A DNA stretch of 14,478 bases, taken from assembly GCA_900539645.1 (NCBI GenBank), contig UQCY01000038.1, positions 1 through 14,478 on the forward strand. The letters are read 5' to 3'. The notes beneath the pieces were generated by a model that was not told where the DNA came from, did not search any database, and saw only the letters and a program-made list of their open reading frames with translations. This document shows positions 8,333 to 13,598 of the stretch, piece by piece (the first letter of the stretch is position 1; each line of letters begins with the position of its first letter). A program made the position numbers and the translations under genes. Source of the DNA: an uncultured Clostridium sp. (GTDB lineage Bacteria > Bacillota > Clostridia > Peptostreptococcales > Peptostreptococcaceae).

Positions 8333-8523
8333 TATTTAACATTCATAATTATATTATATAGCAAAAGGTTGAATTTCTGTATAAAATTTGATGAATTTTG
8401 TAATGAGTTTTTATTCAATTTTTTTATATATACATAAATCTGTTCTATAATTGATTGTTATTAATCTAGTCAAATCTATTAAACTATAAATTTGATATTT
8501 CAATTAACCTAGTATAATTTCTA

Positions 8524-8532
8524 TGTTATAAT
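8524..8532 (+). promoter_or_regulatory. Extended -10 promoter of the speD cluster
   Basis: TGTTATAAT is an extended -10 element (TGn plus TATAAT) about 50 bases before the speD start, giving a leader of roughly 40 bases. A second TATAAT at 8513-8518 has TTGATA 15 bases upstream, a short spacer. Either could drive the cluster. Confidence 0.5.
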
Positions 8533-8581: not shown

Positions 8582-8926
8582 ATGGCATATCAATTATTTT
8601 TAGATTTATACGATTGTAATAAAAATAAAATAGATGATTTAGAGCTTGTAAAAGAAATTGCACACAAGGCTATTTCTGATATAGATGCTTATATAGTAGA
8701 AGAATGTAGTCACAAATTTTCTCCAATAGGAATAACATACATCGCGGTTATTTCTACATCACATTTTTCAATTCACACTTGGCCAGAGTACGGATATGTA
8801 GCTGTAGATATTTTTTCTTGTGATAAAAAAGTTCCAGAATCTATTGGAGGGTTTTTAAAAGATGCTTTTGATGCGAAATCAATTAAACAAAATAGATTTA
8901 ATAGAGATATTAAAGGAGGTGCATAG
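8582..8926 (+). CDS. speD: S-adenosylmethionine decarboxylase proenzyme
   Basis: Makes decarboxylated SAM, the aminopropyl donor for spermidine-type polyamines. The 114-residue chain is the short prokaryotic (class 1b) form, which cleaves itself to create a pyruvoyl cofactor. The family block HFSIHTWPEYGYVAVDIFSC (61-80) is present. By comparison with the Thermotoga enzyme, S60 is the pyruvoyl serine, H65 the processing base and C80 the catalytic cysteine. The residue before the cleaved serine is T59, where the Thermotoga protein has Glu. The start has AAAGGA about 7 bases upstream. It is the first gene of a four-gene cluster ending in an aminopropyltransferase, which would use its product. 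Its stop codon nearly touches the next start, and the ribosome binding site of that gene lies inside speD, so translation is probably coupled. Confidence 0.93.
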   Translation: MAYQLFLDLYDCNKNKIDDLELVKEIAHKAISDIDAYIVEECSHKFSPIGITYIAVISTSHFSIHTWPEYGYVAVDIFSCDKKVPESIGGFLKDAFDAKSIKQNRFNRDIKGGA

Positions 8927-8927
8927 T

Positions 8928-10022
8928 GTGGAATATAATGTCGGTCAATTTTTAAAAGTTGATGAAGTAATCTATGAGATTGTTGGAAAAATCCAGTTTA
9001 GAAATTATTCAGACAACTGTACTTGGTTTGAGTATAGGCTTCTTGAAAGATTTGGACCTGGTGAGCGGTGGCTGAGTATCGACGATAAGTATAGAGAATA
9101 CTCTATTTCTTGGACTACTGGTGAACTTTCTCTAGACGGATACCATCAAGTAGATAAAGGAATACGGGAAGTTGTAAGTGTTTCTGGAGATGTAGATGTC
9201 GACGTTGGTGATAGCGCATCATTTTGTGAATACGAGGATAGAACAGAAGAAAAGATTATATCTGTTGAACAATGGAACGATATAAAAGAATTTTCTAGAG
9301 GTTATTACCTAGATAAAAATGAAATCTGTTTTGCAAATACCTCAGATGTAAGTAACTTTTCAACAAATTCCTCTAAATCCTCTGCTTCTTCTAGAAATGG
9401 TAAAAAGAGAATCAATCCTTTCTTTGTAATAGGAATAGCTATGTTGCTTGTATTTGCTATAGGTTTTATAGGAAATATGATTGGAGGAAAGTCTATTGCA
9501 AAGTTCTTAAAAAAATCTAACCAATTCACTTATGTTACCTCAATTACAGGAAATGATGGAGAAAAGGCAGATGTGTACGAATCATCACTTTCTAAGGAAG
9601 ATACAGTAATGACTATTATAGAAGCTGTTGATGGCAATGTTTTAAATGTAGAAGAAGACAAAACTCAAGGAAGTGAAAGCATTGCAATCCTAACTGAAGA
9701 CGAATACTGCATGGTATATATATCTGTATCAAATGAGGTTCTTGTGCAGATTTCAAATAGAAAATATGCCTATACTTCAGATAAAGAACCTTATCACTCA
9801 TCTGCGCATACCCATAGTTATTACAGAAGATATTACTACTCTGCTGCATATTTAGGAGATGCTAGAAGGTACAGAAGACATCATTCTCCTTATGAAAACT
9901 ACAATGGAGAAAGATTAGATACAGACATGTTTGATCAATACGATTCATACTCAGATAGTATAAAAAGAAACAGTGTAAACTCAAGAACATCTTCTGGTGG
10001 TGGCTTGAGTAGTGGAAAATAA
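8928..10022 (+). CDS. DUF4178-type protein with one membrane span
   Basis: Function unknown. The start is GTG at 8928, with AGGAGG 8 bases upstream inside the end of speD; an in-frame ATG at 8862 would overlap speD by 65 bases and has no comparable site. The 364 residues begin with a DUF4178-like beta-rich domain (about 1-135: YNVGQFLKV, YEIVGKI, WFEYRLLE, GERWLSID). A Ser-rich linker (145-158) and one strong hydrophobic segment (about 164-186) follow, then a second soluble domain (200-285). The tail (287-364) is rich in Tyr, Arg and His and ends in SSGGGLSSGK. There is no signal peptide, so the DUF4178 part should be cytoplasmic and the C-terminal part outside if the single span is real. It stands between speD and DUF350, an arrangement that suggests a structural or regulatory partner for the membrane aminopropyltransferase. 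Confidence 0.82.
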   Translation: MEYNVGQFLKVDEVIYEIVGKIQFRNYSDNCTWFEYRLLERFGPGERWLSIDDKYREYSISWTTGELSLDGYHQVDKGIREVVSVSGDVDVDVGDSASFCEYEDRTEEKIISVEQWNDIKEFSRGYYLDKNEICFANTSDVSNFSTNSSKSSASSRNGKKRINPFFVIGIAMLLVFAIGFIGNMIGGKSIAKFLKKSNQFTYVTSITGNDGEKADVYESSLSKEDTVMTIIEAVDGNVLNVEEDKTQGSESIAILTEDEYCMVYISVSNEVLVQISNRKYAYTSDKEPYHSSAHTHSYYRRYYYSAAYLGDARRYRRHHSPYENYNGERLDTDMFDQYDSYSDSIKRNSVNSRTSSGGGLSSGK

Positions 10023-10046
10023 TTTTTTAAAAAGGAGATTAAAAAT

Positions 10047-10478
10047 ATGGCTTTTTTAACAGAAATCACTAATATTGCAATATATTCGATACTTGGAATA
10101 GTATTTATGATGCTTGGAAACTTCCTTTTAGATTTAGTAGTTCCTTGTCATTTTCCTACAGAAATAAAAAAGGGAAATCAAGCTGTTGGCTGGCTTAGCG
10201 CTGGTTCATTTATAGCTATAGGTCTTATTCTTCGCACAGCAATTATGTCACCATCTGCAGAAGCTGTCAGCGAAAGTTTAGCATCTGGCATATTAAACAC
10301 TTCTCTTTACTTTGTTTTAGGTATGGTATTTTTAATACTTGGATATGTAGTTGTTAGTCTATTTAATAAACGCTACAACCTAAACGAAGAAATTGGAAAC
10401 GGAAATGTAGCTGCAGGTCTTATGGTGTTTGGTATATTTATCGGACTTGCACTAGTAATCAGCGGCGTTATCAGTTAA
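10047..10478 (+). CDS. DUF350 family four-span membrane protein
   Basis: Integral membrane protein of unknown function, 143 residues. There are four hydrophobic segments (about 9-31, 49-66, 85-106, 121-142) arranged as an internal duplication. Each half has two spans joined by a short loop with the family signature: EIKKGNQAVG (39-48) in the first half and EEIGNGNVAAG (114-124) in the second. AAGGAG lies 9 bases before the ATG, which is 25 bases past the DUF4178 gene. In Escherichia coli the DUF350 protein YjfL lies next to a PspA-like protein (YjfJ) and a glutathionylspermidine-synthase-like protein (YjfC), so a polyamine link recurs. Here the partners are SpeD and an aminopropyltransferase. 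The DUF350 call is firm; its role is not known. Confidence 0.88.
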   Translation: MAFLTEITNIAIYSILGIVFMMLGNFLLDLVVPCHFPTEIKKGNQAVGWLSAGSFIAIGLILRTAIMSPSAEAVSESLASGILNTSLYFVLGMVFLILGYVVVSLFNKRYNLNEEIGNGNVAAGLMVFGIFIGLALVISGVIS

Positions 10479-10492
10479 TAGGAGATTAATTG

Positions 10493-11995
10493 ATGAAAAA
10501 ATATAGACTTTTAATGCTTACGACACTTATTATTTCAGGTTGCTCAATATGCTATGAGCTTATAATAAGTGCCGTAAGCTCTTATTTAATAGGTGACACA
10601 ACTCTTCAATACTCTATAACAATTGGATTGTATATGTGCGCAATGGGACTTGGCTCATATATTTCTAAGTATATGAAAAATAATCTTTTTAATTGGTTTG
10701 TATTTATAGAAATCGGTGTGGCAATAGTCGGTGGTACTTCTGCTTTAATCCTATTCTACGCAAATTTATATTTAGAAACATATCAGATTGTTATGTATAT
10801 AGAGATAATAGTGATAGGTACATTTGTCGGTGCAGAAATTCCAATACTTACTAGAATTATTGAGGACGATAATGAAAATCTTAGAGTTACTCTTTCATCT
10901 ATATTTAGTTTTGACTATATAGGCGGACTTGTTGGATCAATAGCTTTTCCAATTATATTGCTTCCACATCTTGGATATTTCGCAACATCATTTTTGATAG
11001 GTTGTATGAACACATTGGCTGCAACTCTAATTATTTTTAAGTATTCAGATAGGCTAATAAATCCAAAGGTATATAGAATATCTGTCGTAATTTTATTTGT
11101 TGTTATGCTTCTTGGAATGTTGTTTTCAGATAATATCTCTAGTCGTGTCGAGGATGGACTATATAGAGATAGGGTTATTTTTTCCAAACATACAAAGTAT
11201 CAGCATATCGTAATGACTAAACACAAAGATGATTTAAGACTGTTTATAGACGGAAATATACAGTTTAGTTCAGCAGATGAGTATAGATATCACGAGGTCC
11301 TTGTCCATGTTCCAATGTCTAAGGCAAAGAATAAGGATAATGTTCTTATCTTGGGCGGTGGCGATGGCCTTGCTGTTAGAGAAATTTTGAAATATGAAGA
11401 ACCAAACATTACCCTTGTTGATTTAGATAAAGATATGGTAAATCTTTGTAGGGAAAATAAGCAAATAAAGGAGCTTAATAAAAATTCGTTAAACAGCGAT
11501 AGACTAACTATCGTTAATCAAGATGCTTATCAGTTTCTAAAAAATACAGATAAGAAATTTGACGTTATTATCGTCGATTTGCCAGATCCAAATAATGAGT
11601 CTTTAAATAAACTTTATACTAATGTTTTTTATAGACTTTGTAGCAATTCTCTTACAGATGATGGTATTATGACAGTTCAATCTACTAGTCCATATTATGC
11701 TGCTAATGCTTTTTGGTGTATTAATGATACTCTGGAAAGCGAAGGGTTTTATGTTAAGCCATATCATCTTCAAGTTCCCTCTTTTGGAGATTGGGGATTT
11801 AACTTAGCTTCTAAGAAAAAGTTAGATGATAGGTTTGAGATAGATGTCGATACTAGGTTTTTGGATGAGAGTAATTTAGATTCGCTGTTTGAGTTTGGCA
11901 AGGATGAGATGCCTAAGGGTGAAGTTGAGATTAATTCGTTGTCTAAACCTCGGTTGATAACATACTACTCTAAGGCAGTACGCAACTGGGAGTAG
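10493..11995 (+). CDS. Aminopropyltransferase (spermidine synthase-like) fused to 7 membrane spans
   Basis: Likely transfers an aminopropyl group from decarboxylated SAM to an amine at the membrane. The first 213 residues hold seven hydrophobic spans (about 6-32, 40-58, 68-90, 99-120, 134-158, 162-182, 194-213). The rest is a spermidine-synthase fold: KYQHIV (235-240), FIDGNIQFSSADEYRYHEVLVHVPM (251-275), the donor-binding loop LGGGDG (287-292), D310, D344-A345 and DLPDPN (362-367) with the catalytic aspartate, then LYTNVFYRL. These residues suit polyamine synthesis better than methylation. The start is ATG 10493, with AGGAG 8 bases upstream; a TTG one codon earlier is worse placed. It follows DUF350 by 14 bases and closes the cluster. 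Acceptor amine and product are unknown; membrane-fused members are common in bacteria. Confidence 0.9.
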   Translation: MKKYRLLMLTTLIISGCSICYELIISAVSSYLIGDTTLQYSITIGLYMCAMGLGSYISKYMKNNLFNWFVFIEIGVAIVGGTSALILFYANLYLETYQIVMYIEIIVIGTFVGAEIPILTRIIEDDNENLRVTLSSIFSFDYIGGLVGSIAFPIILLPHLGYFATSFLIGCMNTLAATLIIFKYSDRLINPKVYRISVVILFVVMLLGMLFSDNISSRVEDGLYRDRVIFSKHTKYQHIVMTKHKDDLRLFIDGNIQFSSADEYRYHEVLVHVPMSKAKNKDNVLILGGGDGLAVREILKYEEPNITLVDLDKDMVNLCRENKQIKELNKNSLNSDRLTIVNQDAYQFLKNTDKKFDVIIVDLPDPNNESLNKLYTNVFYRLCSNSLTDDGIMTVQSTSPYYAANAFWCINDTLESEGFYVKPYHLQVPSFGDWGFNLASKKKLDDRFEIDVDTRFLDESNLDSLFEFGKDEMPKGEVEINSLSKPRLITYYSKAVRNWE

Positions 11996-12000
11996 GTTGG

Positions 12001-12091
12001 TAAGGAGGATGTGAATAATATCCTCGCTCCAGGCTCAGCCGCGTAGCGTCTTCAATTGTCGCTGAGTATATTATTTCACATCCTTCCTTTA
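12001..12091. repeat. Long GC-rich nested inverted repeat after the aminopropyltransferase
   Basis: Arms at 12001-12021 and 12068-12091 match in inverted orientation over about 20 bases (GGATGTGAA-TAATAT core; small gaps). Inside, CTCAGC (12034-12039) pairs with GCTGAG (12061-12066), around a GC-rich centre that stands out from the AT-rich surroundings. It starts 5 bases past the stop codon. It could be a transcript-end structure, a small structured RNA or a short mobile repeat. No T-run follows, so a plain terminator is unlikely. Confidence 0.6.
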
Positions 12092-12123
12092 CTGAGGAGT
12101 AATATTATAATTTATACAATGTT

Positions 12124-12152
12124 GGAAGTGGTAAGCCACTTCCTCTTTTTTT
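12124..12152 (+). terminator. GGAAGTGG-family terminator, copy 1
   Basis: GGAAGTGG-taag-CCACTTCC is a perfect 8-bp stem with a 4-base loop, followed by TC and seven T. It is likely the transcription end of the speD cluster. The same stem recurs at 12242 and 13612. Confidence 0.88.
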
Positions 12153-12241
12153 ATTCAAATGCGAAGCATCTTTTATTGTACTTGAATTGCACTAGGTCAT
12201 ATCGTTCTCTATTCGGCAATATTTAGTAAATGAAATTATGT

Positions 12242-12268
12242 AGGAAGTGGTGAGCCACTTCCTTTTTT
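12242..12268 (+). terminator. GGAAGTGG-family terminator, copy 2
   Basis: AGGAAGTGG-tgag-CCACTTCCT gives a 9-bp stem with a 4-base loop and a T6 run. No gene lies between it and copy 1, so it is a second barrier ahead of the Fic gene or a duplicate of copy 1. Confidence 0.88.
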
Positions 12269-12395: not shown

Positions 12396-13598
12396 ATGAA
12401 GACAGATCCATTTAAAGAATATATAAAAGCATCCGAGCCTTCTAAAGCTATCAAAGGTTATGCATGGAGCACCGCCATTGGTCTTCAAGCTGTGGATGGA
12501 CTTAAAACATCAAAATATTTAATAGATAAAGCTATAGATAATATTGAGGGGAAAATTTCCATAAAAGAAGCTCAAAATTTAATAGACGCATATTATGAGG
12601 AAAAGACTGAGCACTCAGTTGATGAAGAACGTACAGAAGAAGCTGATAAAGTATCTGCTCGCATAGCAGAATTACTTTCTGAAACAGCATTTTCTTTCTC
12701 GCCTGCAGAGTATATATCAATCCACAAAAAACTGTTTAATGGTTTATATAAATATGCTGGAAAGATAAGAGATTACAATATTACAAAAAAAGAGTGGGTA
12801 TTGGACGGGGCTAGCGTGACATATGGTACTGCATCAGAATTAAAAGCTACCTTAGAGTATGATTTTGAGCAAGAAAGAAACTTCAGCTATAAAGGGCTTT
12901 CTATGGATGAAACTATTCATCATCTTGCTATTTTTGTTTCTAGGTTATGGCAAATTCACATATTTGGAGAGGGAAATACTAGAACAACTGCTGTATTTTT
13001 CATTAAGTATTTGAGGACTCTTGGTTTTTCTGTGACAAATGATATATTTGCCGATAATTCATGGTATTTTAGAAATTCTCTTGTTCGTGCAAATTATACA
13101 AATATACAGAATAATGTTCATGAAACAACTAAATACTTGGAGATATTTTTGAGAAATCTTCTTTTAAATGAAAAAAATGAACTACATAATAGAAGTATGC
13201 ATATTAGTGGACTTTGGGATGATAATTTGAATTTTAAAGATGAAAATTCGTATATTAAAGAAGCAGAATCGAACAATCAATCTATAAATTCGTATATTGA
13301 AAGTAAAGAAATGGATATTAAAAACAAAAAAACTTATATTGATAACATAGAAAATAATATCAAATATGTCTTTAGTAGAGAAATAGATAGCTTTTCTACT
13401 AAAACATTAAATCATATTCAATTATTATTTGATAGATTTGGATATGATGAAATATTTGGAAGATCTATGGTTATGGATTTACTAGGTCTTAAACCATCAG
13501 CTAGCTCTAGATTACTTTCAAATTTATTAGATGTTGGTATTATTAAATCTGTTTCCGGTCATGGAAAAGGTAAATACAAATTTAAGAATAATATATAA
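12396..13598 (+). CDS. Fic-domain protein with C-terminal winged helix
   Basis: Probable nucleotidyl (AMP) transferase acting on a protein target; target unknown. The 400 residues have an N-terminal helical part (1-95, including AIDNIEGKISIKEAQ), the Fic fold (about 100-255) with motif HIFGEGNTRTT at 188-198, and a linker. A winged-helix domain follows (about 335-398: RSMVMDLLGLKPSASSRLLSNLLDVGIIKS). The catalytic H188, E192, G193, N194 and R196 are kept. The second Arg of the usual HxFxxGNxRxxR motif is A199. The N-terminal E51-G52 resembles the inhibitory (S/T)xxxE(G/N) motif, but the -4 residue is I47. AGAGG is 8 bases before the ATG. No antitoxin gene is adjacent. Terminators of one family flank it on both sides, so it is a one-gene unit, perhaps acquired. 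Confidence 0.9.
   Translation: MKTDPFKEYIKASEPSKAIKGYAWSTAIGLQAVDGLKTSKYLIDKAIDNIEGKISIKEAQNLIDAYYEEKTEHSVDEERTEEADKVSARIAELLSETAFSFSPAEYISIHKKLFNGLYKYAGKIRDYNITKKEWVLDGASVTYGTASELKATLEYDFEQERNFSYKGLSMDETIHHLAIFVSRLWQIHIFGEGNTRTTAVFFIKYLRTLGFSVTNDIFADNSWYFRNSLVRANYTNIQNNVHETTKYLEIFLRNLLLNEKNELHNRSMHISGLWDDNLNFKDENSYIKEAESNNQSINSYIESKEMDIKNKKTYIDNIENNIKYVFSREIDSFSTKTLNHIQLLFDRFGYDEIFGRSMVMDLLGLKPSASSRLLSNLLDVGIIKSVSGHGKGKYKFKNNI

Follow-up and report, generated by a model that had tools for sequence, protein, structure and literature searches.

An AdoMet decarboxylase (AdoMetDC) encoded together with an MFS-spermidine synthase (SpdSyn) fusion and DUF350 was reportedly described by Li and colleagues in 2019, who are said to have raised a non-polyamine role for such AdoMetDC/SpdSyn clusters and to have proposed a non-polyamine acceptor, naming none and not discussing a tail protein. 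The stretch of DNA analysed here (14,478 nt, hereafter the window) resembles that system in having SpeD, a membrane SpdSyn fusion and DUF350. It also resembles E. coli yjfIJKLMC, which has DUF350, a partner protein (there DUF1190) and a polyamine-attaching enzyme; the E. coli cluster additionally has a PspA homologue. However, yjfIJKLMC uses an ATP-grasp ligase, YjfC (annotated peptide-spermidine ligase), rather than an aminopropyltransferase, and the E. coli partner YjfM ends in ARGHWGG, not in lysine as the window's tail does. The main text of Ravi et al. (2024; PMC11237479) presents an operon of a 7TM-fused synthase, DUF350, DUF4178 and PspA, mentions a DUF4247 variant and, with reference to Li et al. 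2019, raises the possibility of 'aminopropylation of other substrates'. Since both the operon and this suggestion are found in PMC11237479, the aminopropylation idea that a preliminary description of this DNA had put forward is not new, and both the cluster type and the notion that the acceptor is not a polyamine have been published before.

The window has the fusion, DUF350 and DUF4178 together, as in the PSP-linked operon of PMC11237479, but differs from it in that DUF4178 and DUF4247 are fused and PspA is absent: none was seen among the window's recognised ORFs, and the nearest genome (G001) has no PF04012 match. The account of the operon in PMC11237479 mentions neither a lysine tail nor an outside catalytic domain (the word 'lysine' occurs 0 times in the main text), and the listings and passages from our literature search contained nothing on either. 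New here are the domain make-up of the second gene, its lysine tail, the Lys-ended proteins near nearly all fusion loci, the contrast between tails with and without the enzyme, and the reading that places the catalytic domain outside. We propose, with a probability of about 0.42, that the cluster may be a dedicated envelope aminopropylation module whose acceptor is the C-terminal lysine of its own tail protein.

An ORF check recovered all four genes at the coordinates given earlier, closely packed on the plus strand as previously described. Among 199 Bacillota genomes the fusion was over cut-off in 8 and DUF4178 in 11, with both in 7 (Fisher p 1.2e-9), while DUF350, over cut-off in 22 of the 199, accompanied the fusion in 7 of its 8 genomes, adjoining it each time. 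The four-gene cluster and the joint travel of its families, a check that the preliminary description had suggested, are therefore confirmed.

The first gene (8582..8926, plus strand, 114 aa) encodes SpeD, S-adenosylmethionine decarboxylase class 1b (PF02675, 114.3 bits; TIGR03330, 104.2 bits against a cut-off of 75.65). Alignment to T. maritima AdoMetDC indicated that the pyruvoyl Ser, His and Cys are kept and that Thr replaces the Glu before the pyruvoyl Ser. SpeD would, by its sequence, supply decarboxylated AdoMet (dcAdoMet). Neofunctionalised AdoMetDC homologues do exist, and PMC10407285 distinguishes decarboxylation of AdoMet from that of ornithine or arginine. The earlier claim that the first and last genes make and use decarboxylated SAM would fit the family membership of both by HMM and the retained active-site residues. 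speD lies within the cluster in 27 of 36 genome-contig loci. Against our reading, it is in-cluster in 0 of 19 other Bacillota clusters (L107-L115, L212-L221), and a 99%-complete genome (G100) has fusion and tail without a SpeD match. That no putrescine- or agmatine-making gene is linked holds for the window, but G001 has one OKR_DC_1 match elsewhere in its genome. PF02784 (ornithine/arginine/DAP decarboxylases) is present in 19 of 20 fusion genomes; since it does not tell DAP decarboxylase apart, we left these counts unused as evidence.

The second gene (8928..10022, plus strand, 364 aa) likely starts at the GTG at 8928, one base past the SpeD stop and behind AAAGGAGG in speD, in agreement with the ribosome binding site previously placed within the preceding gene. 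Its product combines a predicted cytoplasmic DUF4178 domain (residues 5-129, 8940..9314; PF13785, 52.7 bits against a cut-off of 25), a sole predicted TM segment recognised by eye (9417..9482) and a DUF4247-like domain, predicted extracytoplasmic (9483..10019). Residues 186-364, tail included, matched a DUF4247 profile in hhalign with probability 98.8 and E 4.6e-17. Neither the whole protein nor its C-terminal part gave a Pfam match to PF14042 (DUF4247, cut-off 27); kinship is visible by profile comparison only, and we therefore call the domain DUF4247-like rather than a Pfam member. The preliminary description, which listed the middle pair as membrane proteins of unknown function, missed the DUF4247 part, the lysine tail and the likely outside position of the catalytic domain. 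The tail, RTSSGGGLSSGK-COOH (9984..10019, plus strand), reads SSGGGLSSGK at its end; among the matches listed, 120 of 120 homologues end in GK, keeping the terminal lysine that we propose as the aminopropyl acceptor. After a gap of 24 nt follows DUF350 (10047..10478, plus strand; PF03994, 105.6 bits against a cut-off of 26), a membrane protein of 143 aa with two 2-TM units, the halves of which are separate ORFs in L018-L032, L034 and L036.

The last gene (10493..11995, plus strand; ATG at 10493, with TTG at 10490 possible) encodes the membrane-fused aminopropyltransferase, with 617.8 bits to NF002956 (curated NF002956/PRK03612 cut-off 472) and 149.6 bits to PF01564. Consistent with the seven membrane spans described earlier, an AF2 model (pLDDT 87.7) and the hydropathy of 45 sequences agree on seven TM helices followed by the catalytic domain. 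The TM domain (10493..11122; pLDDT 91.8 when modelled alone) consists of TM1-6, with the six-TM half-domain fold of the MFS, and TM7; the MFS match comes from the second aligner alone, Foldseek against the PDB giving none at E <= 0.001. With 7 TM helices per chain rather than the 12 of the MFS, a dimer of the fusion could complete an MFS-like arrangement. Polar residues E22, E115, R121, E124 and D141 of this domain are invariant in 30 window-like sequences. The spermidine-synthase-like domain (11156..11992, plus strand) shares its fold and catalytic residues with spermidine, thermospermine and agmatine aminopropyltransferases (PDB 1uir, 3anx, 6bq2, 1inl), whereas these soluble enzymes have no TM domain and differ at R265, F258, K373, Y375 and G435 (64 soluble enzymes). 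The catalytic Asp pair is kept in 55 of 55 sequences and the amine-site residues largely so; aminopropyl transfer to a polyamine is a putative activity of the enzyme. The charge pattern and the half-MFS fold, together with the loss of catalytic-domain cysteines outside the clostridial clade, favour a catalytic domain that lies beyond the membrane, facing the same side as the tail. In the window's own clade 2-9 cysteines remain in this domain, so for the window's enzyme the cysteine test is silent or adverse. To our knowledge there is no precedent for an AdoMet-type substrate being used outside the membrane.

What computation shows is the gene content, the joint occurrence of the families, the conserved tail and its link with the enzyme, the retained catalytic residues and the half-MFS fold; the outside location, dcAdoMet export, the lysine acceptor and a function for the product are inferred. 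Cytoplasmic SpeD would decarboxylate AdoMet, and the resulting dcAdoMet would cross the membrane via the half-MFS domain, probably as a dimer forming a complete MFS-like pore, and/or via DUF350. On the outer face the spermidine-synthase-like domain would aminopropylate the tail's C-terminal lysine at its side-chain amine, the acceptor here being the membrane-anchored DUF4178-TM-DUF4247 protein. The product, a protein tipped with a short polyamine and strongly cationic, could bind anionic lipid or a wall polymer, and DUF4178 (with PspA in other lineages) may, acting as a stress sensor, link the tail to the membrane's inner side. More tentatively, the enzyme would be an extracytoplasmic dcAdoMet-dependent one that makes C-terminal N-(3-aminopropyl)lysine on a dedicated membrane-anchored protein. 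An aminopropylated GK would then be one of three interchangeable polycationic ends of such proteins in bacteria, the others being a terminal Gly to which spermidine is ligated and an RRR cluster written into the gene; dcAdoMet export by a half-MFS dimer or DUF350 would be implied. Hypusine on eIF5A is likewise a polyamine-derived group on lysine, but there an unrelated cytoplasmic enzyme uses the aminobutyl group of spermidine and an internal lysine, whereas our proposal involves an aminopropyl group and a C-terminal lysine.

Tails of this kind accompany the fusion widely. A Lys-ending protein is nearby in 67 of the 69 fusion loci having context, GGGxxxGK is frequent, and the carriers include apparently unrelated membrane-anchored proteins. 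Against our reading, some tails (GPSHK, GSHK, SNRVK, RHGK) are without the GGGxxxGK pattern, and a C-terminal Lys by itself is common (115/724). Among Bacilli, a GK end of DUF4247 is seen in 12 of 12 rows that have the enzyme versus 0 of 50 without it, 47 of these 50 ending instead in an encoded basic cluster. In the Bacillus cluster L109, composed of PspA, DUF4178, DUF4247, DUF350 and the fusion, the DUF4247 protein shares 100% identity with a Bacillus sp. REN10 record. A tree built with 26 of 47 intact rows that lack GK (the other 21, mostly near copies, were omitted) traced the tail-enzyme correlation to one change with support 80; repeated independent changes were not found in it, and the correlation counts as one evolutionary contrast. 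Four of the 45 'without' genomes, all of one family (G277, G295, G311, G326), have a TM-plus-SpdSyn-like protein of 521-567 aa, encoded at a distance of 8-11 kb and scoring 32-38 bits against the fusion profile built here. Its GGGDG is replaced by GAAGGT or GAAAGT and the second Asp by Ser, and the enzyme was therefore counted as absent. An M. tuberculosis DUF4247 protein (Rv2599), read from a printed primer, is not Lys-ended, which also tells against our reading; we take a fused SpeE to lie near it. A scan of a viral collection gave 28 loci, one of which (L226) spans the whole fusion; its contig ends just after, and the listed part of the 6 kb upstream holds no tail protein. Neither does L137, a plasmid remnant with the catalytic half only; both loci count against our reading. 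A protein search with the 78-aa Ensifer tail protein found only 6 homologues.

The preliminary description left the acceptor as a lipid, an envelope polymer or a protein; of these the protein option gains from the tail, whose conserved C-terminal lysine makes it a concrete candidate acceptor. The main rival, which we regard as possible but doubtful, is that the enzyme aminopropylates a membrane lipid, a polymer of the wall or a small amine of unknown identity, and that the lysine tail, instead of being the substrate, serves for docking or regulation by bringing the partner protein to the 7TM domain or DUF350. The invariant polar TM residues are as expected of a membrane-embedded substrate site, a docking peptide equally predicts tail conservation, and G100, with tail and enzyme but no SpeD, also speaks for this rival. 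However, encoded Arg/Lys clusters replace the GK end when the enzyme is absent, a pattern more in keeping with a role for charge than with docking, and the terminal lysine is kept in seemingly unrelated carriers. It is improbable that the catalytic domain is instead cytoplasmic and the tail modified before its C-terminus, the last part across, is exported. Both the charge pattern and the half-MFS fold put the C-terminus of the fusion outside, and the cysteine loss beyond the clostridial clade argues the same way, although dcAdoMet is produced inside and the sister system has a cytoplasmic ATP-grasp ligase, with E. coli YjfC (RefSeq: peptide-spermidine ligase) adjoining DUF350 and PspA genes.

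Bulk synthesis of spermidine or a related polyamine by an ordinary membrane-tethered synthase appears less probable still. The fusion is said by Li and colleagues (2019) to have failed to replace SpdSyn in E. coli, spermidine being absent, and the linkage with the tail protein, DUF350 and DUF4178 also tells against such a role. Because 17 of 20 fusion genomes have one or more other SpdSyn-family matches, bulk synthesis is disfavoured as a general role, and the preliminary description's preference for a membrane-sited system over bulk spermidine production stands in general. It does not extend to G001, where the fusion is the sole SpdSyn-family match and SpeD a single copy, so that paralogy gives no argument there; the largely kept amine-site residues would also suit a bulk synthase. 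Last, the SpdSyn-like domain might be a non-catalytic extracellular sensor of polyamine or dcAdoMet that signals via the 7TM domain to DUF4178/PspA. The PspA and envelope-stress context would fit, but the universally kept Asp pair and the frequent presence of speD in the cluster make this very improbable. If aminopropylation of the tail's terminal lysine is correct, it would amount to a new protein modification and to the first case, as far as we know, in which a donor of the AdoMet type is used outside the membrane. It would also give a function to DUF350, DUF4178 and DUF4247 and tie polyamine chemistry to PspA-type envelope stress.

Upstream of speD, a candidate sigma-70-type promoter (TTAACC-17-TATAAT with TG before the -10; 8504..8532, plus strand) makes the promoter region noted earlier plausible, but the scan of the region gave 25 sites versus 27.0 +/- 5.0 by chance and the candidate thus carries no statistical weight. 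An Rfam scan of the whole window gave no match. The terminators previously placed after the cluster were recovered as two intrinsic-terminator-like hairpins on the plus strand, at 12124..12143 and 12242..12263, the second lying inside an 81% repeat of the first hairpin's region.

The four plus-strand genes of the cluster are speD (8582-8926; PF02675/TIGR03330), gene 2, a DUF4178 gene with a GTG start (8928-10022; PF13785), a DUF350 gene (10047-10478; PF03994) and the membrane-fused aminopropyltransferase (10493-11995; PF01564/NF002956, 617.8 bits), separated in order by 1, 24 and 11-14 nt. Both this kind of cluster and the general idea behind it are already known, since PMC11237479 describes PspA operons that encode DUF350, DUF4178, a lipoprotein and a spermidine synthase (SpdSyn) carrying a 7TM domain, as well as a variant with DUF4247; with reference to Li et al., it suggests that polyamines are sensed or that other substrates are aminopropylated. 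Consistent with the grouping proposed in the preliminary description, the families co-occur across genomes. Among 199 Bacillota genomes the fusion is found over the cut-off in 8 and DUF4178 in 11, and the seven genomes with both (p 1.2e-9) always carry them at most about 4 kb apart. DUF4247 is present in 9 of the 199, seven of these being fusion genomes, and DUF350 over the cut-off in 22, including seven of the eight fusion genomes, in each of which it adjoins the fusion; the exception is G100.

Residues 186-364 of gene 2 matched a DUF4247 profile (probability 98.8, E 4.6e-17), while the Pfam DUF4247 model gave no match to gene 2; judged by the profile match, gene 2 is a DUF4178/DUF4247-like fusion. 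Its C-terminal end is ..RTSSGGGLSSGK. Among the matches listed (120 of 224 homologues), all 120 have the GK end, and R-12, G-7, G-6, G-2 and K-1 are invariant. The end (R/S)GGGxxxGK, or one close to this pattern, is found on the DUF4247 lipoprotein or anchored protein of the extended Bacillota loci, and beyond Bacillota the tail carriers differ: 78 aa with a single TM in Ensifer (..LGGGPESGK), 48 aa in Novosphingobium (..GPSHK), 64 aa in Tritonibacter (..SNRVK), an inferred 62 aa in Gemmatirosa (..RHGK), 510 aa in Alteromonas (..GPSSGK) and, in Burkholderia, a protein whose gene runs opposite to that of the fusion (..GSHK). We collected 70 fusion loci (36 from genome_contigs, 10 Bacillota including G001, 10 Bacilli, 13 plasmid records H1-H13, several of them near copies of one another, and L226) and left out L035, a contig end without context. 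A C-terminal Lys was found on a nearby protein in 67 of the 69 loci scored: 58 by pattern search, four by eye (L009, L014, L133, L135) and five (L258-L262) that fit the tail pattern among the last loci added, of which L137 does not. No nearby Lys-ended protein was seen in L226, a viral-collection contig stopping after the fusion, or in L137, a Rhodovulum plasmid remnant (5895-6711) with the catalytic half only, beside which lies a zinc-ribbon/DUF4178-like frame. Because the pattern was drawn up after some tails had been seen and a C-terminal Lys alone is common (115/724 background ORFs, with GK in 5/724), the GGGxxxGK-type cases carry the weight. Genome G339 has two DUF4247 copies (L221, L222), both ending GGGISAGK, with one aminopropyltransferase-family match and no PspA match in the genome.

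The tail also follows the enzyme within DUF4247. Of 249 Bacilli-class genomes, 56 have DUF4247; the GK end is found in 12/12 DUF4247 proteins of the 11 fusion-bearing genomes and in 0/50 rows from the 45 without a fusion over the cut-off. Apart from one row cut at the locus end, one 96-aa fragment and one odd frame tail, the remaining 47 terminate in, or immediately before, an encoded basic cluster (for example GGGRIMRRR, GGSGRITKRR). In four of the 45, all of one family (loci L254-L257 of G311, G295, G277 and G326), a PspA-DUF350-DUF4178-DUF4247(RRR) cluster has a diverged membrane protein of the TM-plus-SpdSyn-like type, 521-567 aa long, at a distance of 8-11 kb. This protein was not counted as the enzyme because it lacks the donor motif, which is degenerate, and the second Asp motif. 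In a tree of 44 DUF4247 proteins with tails removed (18 GK and 26 of the 47 others) the switch falls on one branch (support 80), so the correlation is a single contrast, not many. These ends suggest a common need for a positively charged terminus, with encoded Arg/Lys residues serving it in some proteins and GK together with the enzyme in others. In the sister cluster of E. coli, YjfC, annotated as a peptide-spermidine ligase, lies beside DUF350 and PspA homologues, and the partner YjfM ends in Gly rather than Lys; spermidine ligation to YjfM would likewise yield a cationic end.

We compared 55 fused with 64 soluble aminopropyltransferases. The GGGDG donor motif, D344, the Asp pair D362/D365, Q396 and Y266 are each kept in at least 53 of the 55 fused enzymes, while R265, F258, P364, K373, Y375, F431 and G435 are specific to that family. 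Soluble enzymes have Ile or Val at the R265 position (61/64) and are variable at that of K373, Gly being commonest (31/64). Together, R265 and K373 could bind a C-terminal Lys through its carboxylate. Our tentative reading is that this Lys is the acceptor and that the catalytic domain lies outside, to which together we give a probability of about 0.4. SpeD would produce decarboxylated AdoMet, to be exported by a dimer of the half-MFS fold (TM1-6 of the fusion) and/or by DUF350; the outer catalytic domain would aminopropylate the tail Lys, and the polycationic tip would bind or report on the envelope surface, with DUF4178 (elsewhere PspA too) coupling it inward. Weak points of this computational proposal are G100, which lacks SpeD, the actinobacterial DUF4247 protein Rv2599, without a terminal Lys as read from a primer, and L226.

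A role in bulk synthesis is argued against by a further aminopropyltransferase-family match in 17 of 20 fusion genomes, the exceptions being G001, G100 and G339. This argument fails for G001, the genome nearest to the window, where the fusion is the only family match and SpeD the only copy. The fusion studied by Li et al. reportedly failed to complement a SpdSyn mutant, and spermidine was reportedly absent. As to donor supply, speD lies inside the cluster in 27/36 genome_contigs loci and in G001, and in 0/19 of L107-L115 and L212-L221; SpeD occurs somewhere in 19 of the 20 fusion genomes and not in G100. The G100 cluster (L108) has DUF2617 and no DUF350 over the cut-off; DUF2617 may stand in for SpeD there, or another donor may be used. 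The residue preceding the pyruvoyl Ser is Thr, not Glu, in the window's SpeD (8582-8926) and those of L002-L017 and L033 (TSHFSIHTWPE or similar); canonical and L019-type SpeD have Glu.

Gene order varies among the loci. Among the other Bacillota clusters, L107-L111, L113 and L114 encode DUF4178 and DUF4247 in two genes, with PspA either between these or next to them; no PspA match was found in the G001 genome. DUF350 is split into two 2-TM ORFs of 65-87 aa in L018-L032, L034 and L036, often preceded by two DUF4178 ORFs, and most of these loci, though not L018 and L027, show a short divergent SpeD 3' of the fusion. A single DUF350 half unit occurs in L107, L110, L131, L132, L134 and L136, and a 283-aa long form in Ensifer L130. 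By annotation, the Novosphingobium cluster (L132) has an extra SPFH protein, an FAD-dependent oxidoreductase and a rhodanese-related protein, and the Alteromonas cluster (L135) a toxic anion resistance protein.

Of the flanking signals in the preliminary description, the terminator array corresponds to two terminator-like hairpins 3' of the cluster; for its one promoter region, promoter-like sites are present, but their number is at chance level. The stretch 12006-12268 has a long inverted repeat (about 12008-12085, by eye) followed by the hairpins, which sit in an 81% direct repeat (copies 12108-12149 and 12227-12268). Family matches place a sigma-54 factor and cggR on the minus strand 5' of the cluster; the genes beyond cggR on that strand we take, from their translations, to be gapA, pgk, tpiA and gpmI. 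On the 3' side, family matches identify a Fic-domain protein and a GNAT (12396-13598), and the Fic protein also adjoins the fusion in G001 (L039).
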